NCBI GenBank assembly: GCA_020353055.1
Contig: CP070686.1
Coordinates: 970,218-1,034,217 of the forward strand
Origin: Caldifarciminota bacterium
Lineage (GTDB): Bacteria; Hydrothermota; Tepidihabitantia; SM23-42
Length of the DNA: 64,000 bases
Direction: 5' to 3'
This document shows, one piece after another, positions 29,757 through 33,758 of the stretch; the stretch's first letter is position 1, and every line of letters begins with the position of its first letter. The notes beneath the pieces are model-generated. The model saw only the letters and a list, made by a program, of their open reading frames with translations. It searched no databases and was not told the origin of the DNA. Both the position numbers and the translations under genes were made by a program.

Positions 29757-31058
29757 ATGCTCAAGGAACTCATCAAAAAAAAGAAAGCTATTATCGGAAT
29801 AGTTGGCCTGGGATATGTGGGTCTTCCGATTGCGATCGAAGTCGCCGCGAAAGGCTTTAAGGTAATCGGTATAGATATCGACAAAGACCGTGTCAGAAAA
29901 ATCAACCGAGGTATTTCTTTTATAAGTGATGTGGAATCAAAAGAACTGAAGAAATACGTGCACCAGAAATACATCAGAGCAACGACTGACCACCGACAGC
30001 TCAGTCGGTGCGACGTAATCCTGATTTGCGTTCCGACCCCGGTCAATGAAAACAAAGAACCAGATCTGGCGCCGGTGATTAAAAGCACCGAGTGGATTAA
30101 AGATAACTTACGCCGTAATCAATTGATAATATTAAAGAGTACAACATACCCAGAAACAACCGAGAGGGTACTGTTGCCCATTCTTGCTAATTCCGGGCTT
30201 AAAGTTGGCAAAGATTTCAACCTGGCTTTCTGTCCGGAGCGGATCGACCCTGGAAACAAGAGATATGGAGTTATCAACACTCCGGTCGTAATCGGCGGAG
30301 TGACCAGCCAATGCACAAAAATTGCCACATTTTTCTACAAGCAGTTCGTTACACAGGTTCACCCGGTTTCATCTCCACGGTCGGCCGAAATGACGAAGAT
30401 CCTTGAGAACACCTTCCGTAACGTAAACATTGCACTCGTCAATGAGTTCGCCCAACTTTGTGAACGAATGGGTGGCATCAACATATGGGAGGTGATTGAA
30501 GCCGCTCAGACTAAACCCTTCGGGTTCATGCCTTTCTTTCCAGGACCAGGCGTGGGAGGTCACTGTATTCCGATTGACCCCTATTATCTATCCTGGAAAG
30601 CACGGGAATATGATTTTCACACTGTCTTTATCGAATTGTCCGCACGCATAAACGAAGAAATGCCGTATTTCGTGGTCAACAAAACAATCGAAGTACTGAG
30701 TACTTCTGGCGTGTGCCCAAATCGGGCAAAAGTGTTGTTATTGGGTATGGCTTTTAAGCGAGATATATCCGATCTCAGACACTCACCTGCAATGAAGATT
30801 TACGAAATAATCAAACCACGGGTAGGATTAGTAAGATATCACGACCCCCATGTACCGGAATTCATGCTCGGCGATCGGAAAATGAAGTCCGTGAAATTGA
30901 CCCTTCGTGAAATCAAGAAATATGACGCAATTGTGATTCTCACCGATCACTCGGCGTTTGATTATGAGTTTATAACCAAAAACGCGCGGCTCATCGTCGA
31001 TACGCGCAATTCAGTGCCTGACGGCCCCCGTATCTACAAACTGGGGTGTCGGCATTAA
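29757..31058 (+). CDS. Nucleotide-sugar dehydrogenase (UDP-N-acetyl-D-glucosamine 6-dehydrogenase type)
   Basis: 433 residues. NAD-dependent four-electron oxidation of a UDP-hexosamine to the uronic acid for surface polysaccharide. The N-terminal Rossmann motif is GLGYVGLPIA, the middle domain has the EMTKILENTFRNVNIAL helix, and the catalytic Cys270 lies in PGPGVGGHCIPIDPYYL. That wording is typical of WbpA/TviB-type UDP-GlcNAc dehydrogenases rather than UDP-glucose dehydrogenases. The C-terminal UDP-binding domain (AFKRDISDLRHSPA) is complete. No other sugar gene is next to it. Confidence 0.9.
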   Translation: MLKELIKKKKAIIGIVGLGYVGLPIAIEVAAKGFKVIGIDIDKDRVRKINRGISFISDVESKELKKYVHQKYIRATTDHRQLSRCDVILICVPTPVNENKEPDLAPVIKSTEWIKDNLRRNQLIILKSTTYPETTERVLLPILANSGLKVGKDFNLAFCPERIDPGNKRYGVINTPVVIGGVTSQCTKIATFFYKQFVTQVHPVSSPRSAEMTKILENTFRNVNIALVNEFAQLCERMGGINIWEVIEAAQTKPFGFMPFFPGPGVGGHCIPIDPYYLSWKAREYDFHTVFIELSARINEEMPYFVVNKTIEVLSTSGVCPNRAKVLLLGMAFKRDISDLRHSPAMKIYEIIKPRVGLVRYHDPHVPEFMLGDRKMKSVKLTLREIKKYDAIVILTDHSAFDYEFITKNARLIVDTRNSVPDGPRIYKLGCRH

Positions 31059-31126: not shown

Positions 31127-31161
31127 AAAAAAACCGGCCGCGACCCGCAGGTCGCGACCGG
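31127..31161 (-). terminator. Rho-independent terminator for mutS operon and candidate small RNA
   Basis: GC-rich 12-bp stem with one mismatch (31134-31145 with 31150-31161) and a 4-nt loop, followed on the minus strand by a run of seven U (31133-31127). It lies about 75 bp past the mutS stop. Confidence 0.9.
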
Positions 31162-31204
31162 GAGGGGAAATGAATCTAATAATTTGACAATAAATTCTGA
31201 ATAC
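31127..31204 (-). ncRNA. Candidate small RNA of about 78 nt between mutS and the dehydrogenase gene
   Basis: A perfect promoter (31211-31238) starts transcription at about 31204, and a strong intrinsic terminator ends it at about 31127. No start codon sits at the leaderless position and no reading frame of note lies inside. The RNA would have an AU-rich single-stranded 5' part and a pyrimidine tract (CCCCUCCC, about 31168-31161) that could pair with purine-rich Shine-Dalgarno sites and partly merges with the stem. It ends in the GC hairpin and U tail. This is the layout of a trans-acting regulatory RNA. Its existence is inferred only from promoter and terminator. Confidence 0.55.
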
Positions 31205-31210
31205 CCGTTT

Positions 31211-31238
31211 ATTATAATAAACCGCCTCTTACTGTCAA
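31211..31238 (-). promoter_or_regulatory. Orphan promoter overlapping the mutS stop
   Basis: TTGACA (31238-31233), 16-bp spacer, TATAAT (31216-31211). The -35 box contains the mutS TGA. The -10 box lies inside a perfect 16-bp palindrome (31207-31222), which could be an operator. Confidence 0.75.
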
Positions 31239-33685
31239 GAGGACCGGTCCACAAACAAATCCTGCTGCGAAAGCTTCGTCTTCTTCATCTTCCTCATACT
31301 GAAAACTTCACCCTCTTCAAAATCCCGCAGCACCTCTTTTGCGCGCTGGATAACTGAATCAGGTAACCCGGCAAGCCGAGCCACCTGTATTCCGTAAGAT
31401 TGGTCACTCGGGCCAGCACTTAATTTGCGCAAGAATATCACTTCATCGCCCCACTCTTTCACCAGGAAGTTATAGTTCTTCACACCCTTCAGAAAATCTT
31501 CAATCCGGGTCAGTTCATGAAAGTGGGTGGCGAAAAGCGTCCGCGGTTTCTTTTTGGTGTGCAGGTACTCGACCACCGACCACGCGAGCGCCAGGCCGTC
31601 ATAAGTAGAAGTACCCCGACCAACTTCATCCAGAATAACCAGACTCTGATCCGATACGTTGTTCAATATGTTCGCCGTTTCCATCATTTCCGCAAGGAAC
31701 GTACTGACACCTCGCGATATATCGTCGCTTGCTCCGATACGAGTGAATATCTTGTCGACCAGGCCGATCGAGGCTTCCTTGGCCGGTACAAAACTACCCA
31801 ACTGAGCCATGATCGTGATCAACGCCACCTGACGCAAATAGGTCGATTTCCCAGCCATGTTTGGACCAGTGATGATTATGATTTGATTACGTTCCCGATC
31901 AACATATGTATCATTCGGTATGAATGAACCTCGTTCCAGAATTTTCTCCACAACAGGATGCCGCCCATCTTTGATTACGGTTCTGCGATCATCAGTGACA
32001 ACCGGGCGAGAATAGTTATTGATTGCTGCGTTATGAGCAAAAGACTGCAGTACATCCAAAAACGCAATAGCCCTCGTTGTCTCAAGAATCGCATTACTCT
32101 GTTTTGCCACATGCTCACGGATTCCTGTATACAGATCATACTCAATGGCCCTGGTCTTCTCCTCCGCTCCCAGTATTTTCTCTTCAAATGATTTCAGCTC
32201 AACAGTGTAGTATCTCTCGACATTCGTCAACGTCTGCTTTCTGATGTATTCAGGAGGTACCAGGTGCAGATTCGGCTTTGTAACCTCCACAAAGTATCCG
32301 AAAACCGAATTGTATGATACCTTAAGAGAAGATATACCGGTTCGTTTACGCTCACTTTCTTCGAATTCAAGAAGCCATTTCTTGCCGCCTCGTGCGACCG
32401 CCCGCAATTCGTCCAATTCCTCCGAGTAACCTTCTTTGATTATGCCACCTTCCTCAAGCGTCGCTGGAGGACTGGGCACCAGTGCTTCATCAACCGTTTT
32501 GACAATGTCACCGAAATCACCAATAGCATTGTAAATGCCTGCAATCTTTTCACTCTCACACCCTTCGATCAGTTCCTTCACATTAGGATATATAGAAAGT
32601 GACTCTTTCAATGCAACCAGTTCCCGCGGTAATATCCTCTGACACGCGAGCCGTGCAGTTATTCTTTCAACATCTTGAATGGTCTTAAGAACATTCCTCA
32701 ATTCCTCGCGCAAATATTCTCTCGTCCTCATTTCCTCAACGCTATCGAGTCTCTGCTCGATCGATTCCCTGTCGACGAGTGGTTCATTCAGTTCTCGACG
32801 CAACCTTCTCTTGCCAAAGGACGTCATGCAATTATCGAGTATGCCCAACAAGGTCCTCGAGTGTTCTCCATGGATATTTTCCAGGATCTCAAGATTACGT
32901 CTCGTCGTCGAATCAAGGTAAAGCGACTCATGCGTCTGGAACAGCGAAATGCGGTCGATGTGAGTAAGTGGCACCTTCTGATTTTCTGAAACGTAATAAA
33001 GCAAAGCACCGGCCGCGGCAATACCGAGTTTCTTCTCCTCAATCCCGAAACCGTCCAGAGCCACGACGTGGAAATGATCGAGCAACATCTTATGGGCTAT
33101 TTCGTAGACAAAATGAAATCCATCGAGCTCCGTAACGGTCTGTTCAATCCCTAATTCCACCCCTTCTGGGATGACAACTTCCTTCACCTCCCGCCTCAGC
33201 AATATTTCCGATAACTGATCAGACAATACTTCTCCACATGAAAATTCACCACTTGTTAGATCGCAAAATGCAATACCGGTGTGCTTGTCATCAGGCAGAC
33301 ATGCAGCCAGGAAGACTGTCTTCGTAGCGTCGAGAAGAGAAGGCCTCAGAATAGTACCGGGCGTAATCACTTCGATGACATCGCGGGCGACAAGTTTCTT
33401 TCCTTTCGTCGCGGGTTCCAACTGTTCGCATATTGCCACCTTGAGGCCGTGCTTAACTAATTTTGCGATGTAGCCGTCAGCCGCTTTGATCGGGACGCCT
33501 GCAAGTGGCACGCGAGTGCCCTTGCTGATGGTCTTCGAGGTCAGTGTAATGCCGAGATAAGAACTCGCCAATTTTGCGTCGTCGTAGTAGAATTCGTAGA
33601 AATCGCCGACGCGGAACAGCAGTAAAACACCCTTATATTTGTTCTTGATCTTCTGATATTGTTCAAGAAGTGGGGTAAGATGCAT
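31235..33685 (-). CDS. mutS: DNA mismatch repair protein MutS
   Basis: 816 residues from ATG 33685; an upstream in-frame extension to 33736 lacks family match. The N-terminal mismatch-recognition motif with the Phe-x-Glu wedge is present (RVGDFYEFYYDDA). The C-terminal ATPase has the P-loop GPNMAGKST, ARIGASD-type signature FTRIGASDDISRGVSTF, Walker B LVILDEVGRGTST and the ATHFHEL switch. This is MutS1, acting in post-replicative repair with MutL, which is not in the window. It is the last gene of the lapA-lapB-SPOR operon, 73 bp after the SPOR gene. A strong terminator follows. Confidence 0.97.
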   Translation of the reverse strand: MHLTPLLEQYQKIKNKYKGVLLLFRVGDFYEFYYDDAKLASSYLGITLTSKTISKGTRVPLAGVPIKAADGYIAKLVKHGLKVAICEQLEPATKGKKLVARDVIEVITPGTILRPSLLDATKTVFLAACLPDDKHTGIAFCDLTSGEFSCGEVLSDQLSEILLRREVKEVVIPEGVELGIEQTVTELDGFHFVYEIAHKMLLDHFHVVALDGFGIEEKKLGIAAAGALLYYVSENQKVPLTHIDRISLFQTHESLYLDSTTRRNLEILENIHGEHSRTLLGILDNCMTSFGKRRLRRELNEPLVDRESIEQRLDSVEEMRTREYLREELRNVLKTIQDVERITARLACQRILPRELVALKESLSIYPNVKELIEGCESEKIAGIYNAIGDFGDIVKTVDEALVPSPPATLEEGGIIKEGYSEELDELRAVARGGKKWLLEFEESERKRTGISSLKVSYNSVFGYFVEVTKPNLHLVPPEYIRKQTLTNVERYYTVELKSFEEKILGAEEKTRAIEYDLYTGIREHVAKQSNAILETTRAIAFLDVLQSFAHNAAINNYSRPVVTDDRRTVIKDGRHPVVEKILERGSFIPNDTYVDRERNQIIIITGPNMAGKSTYLRQVALITIMAQLGSFVPAKEASIGLVDKIFTRIGASDDISRGVSTFLAEMMETANILNNVSDQSLVILDEVGRGTSTYDGLALAWSVVEYLHTKKKPRTLFATHFHELTRIEDFLKGVKNYNFLVKEWGDEVIFLRKLSAGPSDQSYGIQVARLAGLPDSVIQRAKEVLRDFEEGEVFSMRKMKKTKLSQQDLFVDRSS

Positions 33686-33758
33686 CAAGGCAAGATCGCT
33701 ACAATAATCCCCGGCTGTTTGCACGCGATGCCGCAACCCATAGCCGTATCATGGTGCG

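Follow-up and report, generated by a model that had tools for sequence, protein, structure and literature searches.

A predicted single-copy small RNA with an invariant C-rich tract in candidate division WOR-3/Stahlbacteria

In the window, by which we mean the whole 64,000-nt stretch of DNA that was analyzed, a perfect promoter lies at the end of the mutS gene and is aimed at no evident protein-coding gene. What is transcribed from this promoter, and what might the transcript do? The mutS gene occupies 31235-33736 on the minus strand, and its TGA stop codon (31237-31235) is overlapped by the promoter's -35 box. The promoter scores 12/12 (minus strand, spacer of 16 nt), and no ORF starts within the promoter-terminator unit (31238-31127, minus strand). 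The initial annotation had read the locus as a perfect TTGACA-16-TATAAT promoter at the mutS stop, with no start codon and a strong terminator, and all of this was borne out on the minus strand. The features of the unit are as follows.

31233..31238, minus strand: -35 box TTGACA, overlapping the mutS stop codon; TTGAC and the fixed 16-nt spacer are found in nearly all homologues
31211..31216, minus strand: -10 box TATAAT, belonging to the perfect TTGACA-16-TATAAT promoter
31207..31210, minus strand: AAAC directly after the -10 box, discriminator or initial RNA; ATAAAC is invariant in 24/24 aligned copies
31127..31204, minus strand: predicted small RNA of 78 nt, with the 5' end inferred from promoter spacing and the 3' end from the terminator
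31183..31189, minus strand: 5' motif UGUCWAA (UGUCAAA in the window), 16-17 nt past AUAAAC; T24, G25, C27, A29 and A30 are invariant or nearly so
31160..31170, minus strand: C-rich tract UUUCCCCUCCC, a candidate for pairing, without variation in the 24 aligned copies
31134..31161, minus strand: terminator hairpin CCGGUCGCGACC-UGCG-GGUCGCGGCCGG, a 12-bp stem with 10 G-C pairs, ultraconserved in sequence
31127..31133, minus strand: terminator U-tract (T7), seen in the sequence

The predicted 78-nt RNA has a folding energy of -31.8 kcal/mol (z = -5.4 versus shuffles), and the fold consists of a single hairpin, with the CCCCUCCC tract outside its loop. On the other flank lies a UDP-sugar (nucleotide-sugar) dehydrogenase-type gene (29757-31058, plus strand). 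Because this gene is convergent with the RNA, the RNA cannot be the leader of anything in the window. A 16-bp perfect palindrome covers the -10 box (31222-31207), from which regulated expression had been suggested. The palindrome is real, but it is present in only 1 of 24 homologues, that of the window's own genome, and we rejected it as an operator.

Perfect TTGACA-N15..18-TATAAT sites number 223 in the genome, nearly all with a 16-nt spacer, versus one for a reversed control pattern. It follows that the unit did not arise by chance, and that its promoter is of the organism's real type. In our promoter survey, which covered a 464-kb sample and 30 promoter loci, what lies past a promoter of this kind is a leaderless start at 5-8 nt, a short Shine-Dalgarno (SD) leader, or a tRNA- or tmRNA-like gene, and a perfect promoter with no ORF after it thus fits a stable-RNA gene. 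As a separate observation, leaderless and SD-led messages in genome G000 (L138-L167, L235-L254) form two translation-initiation classes with one common promoter type, and the short-SD-leader class often precedes signal-peptide proteins or lipoproteins. The same genome has an orphan perfect promoter at L237:12899 (G000:C1, ~372,900), followed by GGAGGGAGGTCC...GACACCTCC, a leader able to sequester its own SD-like site.

A sequence search with a 281-nt stretch of this region found matches among relatives, and the named contigs with the same mutS neighborhood are metagenome-assembled genomes of candidate division WOR-3/Stahlbacteria. A covariance search for copies next to mutS had been suggested; our model, built from 24 copies and searched in 147 genomes of the phylum, finds conserved copies in 25 of them, although mutS is not always adjacent. 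Of the 23 genomes in its own family, 21 carry the RNA, and the model misses it in two whose completeness is 53% and 66%. A sister family in the same order has it in 4/4 genomes, weakly in the case of G025. At an E-value of 0.01, the model detects it in none of the phylum's remaining 120 genomes. It is single-copy in G000 and occupies one locus in most genomes. Exact matches to the core in viral contigs (five, none with the hairpin) reflect chance, and GGTCGCGACC occurs elsewhere in the window at chance level and is not a general terminator sequence.

The aligned copies contain four conserved blocks: the promoter with the invariant ATAAAC, UGUCWAA, UUUCCCCUCCC, and the hairpin CCGGUCGCGACC-UGCG-GGUCGCGGCCGG. 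The 37-nt core, consisting of the C-tract UUUCCCCUCCC and the hairpin, matches the window's copy at 35-37 of 37 positions in 14 relatives. In the same relatives, four-fold degenerate sites of mutS are 29-37% identical, i.e., saturated. The promoter, RNA core and terminator are thereby shown, at the level of sequence comparison, to be under strong purifying selection that is independent of the mutS neighborhood. The initial annotation had proposed a small RNA gene and had named conservation among relatives as the test; conservation extends to the promoter, the C-tract and the hairpin alike, and the proposal is strongly supported. With its own promoter, no ORF, its own intrinsic terminator and conservation independent of neighbors, the locus has the properties of a stand-alone intergenic sRNA gene, and we are highly confident that it is a genuine one.

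Within the hairpin, the aligned copies differ by one compensatory position and several one-sided G-U wobble changes, and the rest does not vary. A GGAGGGG sequence lies 3' of the hairpin in the sister family and in certain genera, where its pairing with CCCCUCC can lengthen the terminator stem. The window's genus lacks this partner, which leaves the C-tract free. Because CCCCUCCC is invariant in 24/24 copies, including those with no possible intramolecular partner, while GGAGGGG comes and goes, conservation of the tract is not due to that stem. The UGUCWAA motif has a fixed spacing to ATAAAC and a variable spacing to the C-tract. In G011 (L014:2795-2910), 12 nt are inserted between the -10 box (TATACT) and ATAAAC, and the 17-nt distance from ATAAAC to TGTCTAA is unchanged. 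This pattern of spacings suggests that ATAAAC-N17-TGTCWAA forms a separate unit, and UGUCWAA is possibly a promoter-proximal element or a second seed. The divergent G025 copy (L132:1440-1587) retains the promoter and hairpin and has lost the CCCCTCC tract; directly after it comes a gene on the same strand whose ribosome site is GGGAGGAA.

Given these conserved elements, we propose the following as the most likely and most economical mechanism. A strong housekeeping promoter would start an RNA of ~78 nt, with an intrinsic terminator of its own at the 3' end, and this RNA would need no Hfq to act in trans. Its exposed UUUCCCCUCCC would pair with G-rich SD sites, GGGAGG(G), located right at the start of short-leader mRNAs, many of them presumably coding for secreted proteins or lipoproteins. 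Pairing at the SD may block ribosome binding, and hence loading, on these other messages. The hairpin would act as terminator and stabilizer, and probably binds a protein. For the combined reading, i.e., a stand-alone, single-copy sRNA gene whose product acts in trans and independently of chaperones through its C-rich tract, we see about as much reason for belief as for doubt, and SD pairing as the RNA's main mode of action is a similarly balanced proposition.

The commonest SD in the window's genome is AAGGAGG, and CCCCUCCC pairs best with GGGAGG(GG). GGGAGG occurs upstream of 15 of 330 ORFs versus 0 of 319 gene-interior samples. Directly after perfect promoters, five of the genus's six genomes have it 3-6 times each and the remaining one has it once; controls give 0. 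Such GGGAGG leaders after the same promoter are common to orthologues of three genes, in two or three species each: a 119-aa lipoprotein-like gene (G000, G003 and G007), a DUF302-like gene and a substrate-binding lipoprotein, the last two names being read off the sequences rather than taken from a family search. Conservation of GGGAGG might reflect no more than its quality as a ribosome site. For target prediction, the analysis covered one 400-kb sample. The 11-nt complement GGGAGGGGAAA, with at most one mismatch, is not enriched (26 occurrences versus 39 in the control), and no 11-nt complementary site is common to orthologous starts in G000, G007 and G004; pairing is therefore plausible, not proven. 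By the predicted pairing, moreover, the C-tract could be hidden in several genera by folding into the terminator stem. The anti-SD role assigned to the tract at the outset is plausible, given the tract's invariance and the existence of short-leader, SD-led transcripts, but the prevalence of AAGGAGG, the small share of ORFs with GGGAGG and the unenriched long complements count against it.

SD pairing leaves the invariance of the hairpin's stem and loop unaccounted for. The invariant stem needs a second explanation, which is probably a protein, and we propose that the hairpin's sequence is fixed because a protein binds it. Taken further, this idea becomes the leading alternative: the RNA could be a sponge or scaffold in which a conserved protein recognizes the hairpin and the C-tract, with mRNA pairing secondary or absent. 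The whole 37-nt core is invariant, including stem pairs that would be free to covary, which points to sequence-specific recognition beyond pairing, and the C-tract is invariant even where it is able to be buried in the stem. However, the usual partners of known sponge and scaffold RNAs are CsrA and Hfq, and model searches that recovered their positive controls detected neither protein in any of 13 genomes. There is also no co-located gene for a partner protein, and the RNA lacks the repeated GGA loops of CsrB/RsmZ-type RNAs, which sequester CsrA. We regard this alternative as possible but rather unlikely. The failure to detect Hfq in the 13 genomes likewise sets the RNA apart from Hfq-dependent sRNAs.

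It might seem natural to attribute the element to mutS itself, either as the mutS terminator with a fortuitous promoter in the gene's 3' end or as a 3'-UTR device acting on mutS mRNA. The -35 box does overlap the mutS stop, and mutS lies directly upstream of the RNA in 17 genomes of the family. However, the RNA persists without an adjoining mutS in three settings: in G015 and in G017 it is flanked by unrelated genes, and in the sister family it sits between an M24-peptidase-like gene and a convergent recO-like gene. The RNA's retention where mutS is not its neighbor marks it as an independent gene. Moreover, the promoter is conserved along with the rest, and an ordinary terminator would not preserve the sequence of its stem. 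These differing neighborhoods largely refute a cis-acting role, which we consider very improbable. On the sequence evidence, the conserved unit is the RNA rather than the neighborhood, and the link to mutS is positional only.

We give an equally low probability to the locus being a site in DNA, for protein binding or recombination, rather than an RNA. Such a site could be single-copy and ultraconserved with a palindromic half (GGTCGCGACC), as here, but it would not explain why one strand has a conserved sigma-70-type promoter of fixed spacing, why that strand also carries a T-tract or other 3' tail, why the stem shows wobble and compensatory changes, or why the spacing between motifs varies. 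Finally, the locus is extremely unlikely to encode a tiny protein, although the strong promoter and short predicted transcript might speak for it, since the linkers between blocks differ by 1-5 nt among species and no ATG or reading frame is conserved.

Returning to the C-rich sRNA that we favor, we consider it quite unlikely that the RNA is, through its invariant hairpin and C-tract, a general modulator of translation, abundant enough to compete at SD-led mRNAs, mostly for exported proteins, while leaderless housekeeping mRNAs escape. If this were true, one RNA would tune one of the two translation-initiation classes in the cell. No small RNA families of WOR-3/Stahlbacteria were found in Rfam, and none emerged from a literature search on Stahlbacteria noncoding RNA. 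In this setting, a gene of ~78 bases without a protein product whose core is nearly unchanged across a whole order bears the mark of a regulatory RNA. It combines constraint far above that on its neighboring gene's silent sites with a single conserved locus, in a lineage that hosts both leaderless and SD-led mRNAs and has no detected Hfq or CsrA. The RNA offers a concrete example on which riboregulation independent of chaperones can be tested in an uncultured phylum.

A pattern search for a promoter followed by a C-tract revealed a second C-rich RNA candidate, at a single locus in 8/8 genomes of sister family f4 of the same class (G028, G030, G032, G034, G036, G038, G097 and G098; loci L230-L234, e.g., L231:999-1130 and L230:2439-2570). 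It consists of TTGACG-16-TATAAT, CCCTCCCC-UAACCAUCAA-CCCCUCCC and then a GC-rich terminator, GCGAGCGGG...CCCGCTCGC, and in several genomes lies between rubrerythrin-like and hypA-like genes. Like the window's RNA, it has its own sigma-70-type promoter and a single locus, and its C-tracts (CCCTCCCC...CCCCTCCC) directly precede the terminator. It differs in having two C-tracts (CCCTCCCCTAACCATCAACCCCTCCC), another locus and another hairpin sequence, and our covariance model does not place it among the homologues (12.5 bits, E = 0.51). That a C-tract followed by a terminator occurs in two independent RNAs of one class lends credence to functional selection on the tract, and the f4 candidate suggests that a C-rich RNA strategy is recurrent in the phylum. 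Two other pattern matches were discarded. The double-C-tract pattern CCCTCCCN{3,20}CCCCTCC mostly hits dispersed repeats such as CCCTCCCCTTTATCCCCTCCC, with similarly high control counts, and a promoter-plus-CCCCTCC match in family f37 (G142, G143) is a leaderless coding gene. Short dispersed repeats of the CCCTCCCCTTTATCCCCTCCC / CCCTCCCCCTACCCCCTCC type reach tens of copies in some WOR-3 genomes (G028, G034, G018, G025).

C-rich UCCC motifs characterize the RsaE/RoxS-type and LhrC-type sRNAs of Firmicutes. The window's RNA resembles these in its small size and in a C-rich motif that is left unpaired and could base-pair at the SD. It differs in its phylum, in showing no sequence relation to them in the Rfam scan, and in having one tract directly 5' of the terminator with an ultraconserved hairpin. 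RsaE is a C-rich sRNA that acts on G-rich 5' UTRs, and its UCCC motif has been proposed to inhibit formation of the ribosomal complex (PMC9266662). Mycobacterial B11/6C also acts as a C-rich RNA on G-rich 5' UTRs (PMC10470900) and, according to a M. tuberculosis study cited there, does so independently of RNA chaperones. Our RNA shares with 6C/B11 (RF01066, Actinobacteria) the C-rich stretch, which in 6C/B11 binds G-tracts in 5' UTRs; unlike the two C-rich hairpin loops of 6C, its tract is linear and adjoins the terminator, its one hairpin leaves the tract outside the loop, and it gives no covariance match to RF01066. In the Cuckoo/CcsR RNAs of Proteobacteria, a small RNA carries the anti-SD C/U motif CCUCCUCCC (PMC3927594), located in the loops of repeated hairpins whose stems diverge, and is linked to DUF1127 proteins (PMC10253847). 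By contrast, our RNA is single-copy with an invariant stem and a linear CCCCUCCC motif, and its neighbors are mutS and the nucleotide-sugar dehydrogenase, or recO-like genes, with no DUF1127 gene among them. An Rfam 15 covariance scan at gathering and E-value thresholds assigned it to no family (best score 21.1 bits versus a gathering threshold of 50). With its conserved C-rich tract complementary to the SD, the predicted RNA is, as judged from sequence, a new and previously uncatalogued family within the C-rich, anti-SD kind of sRNA.
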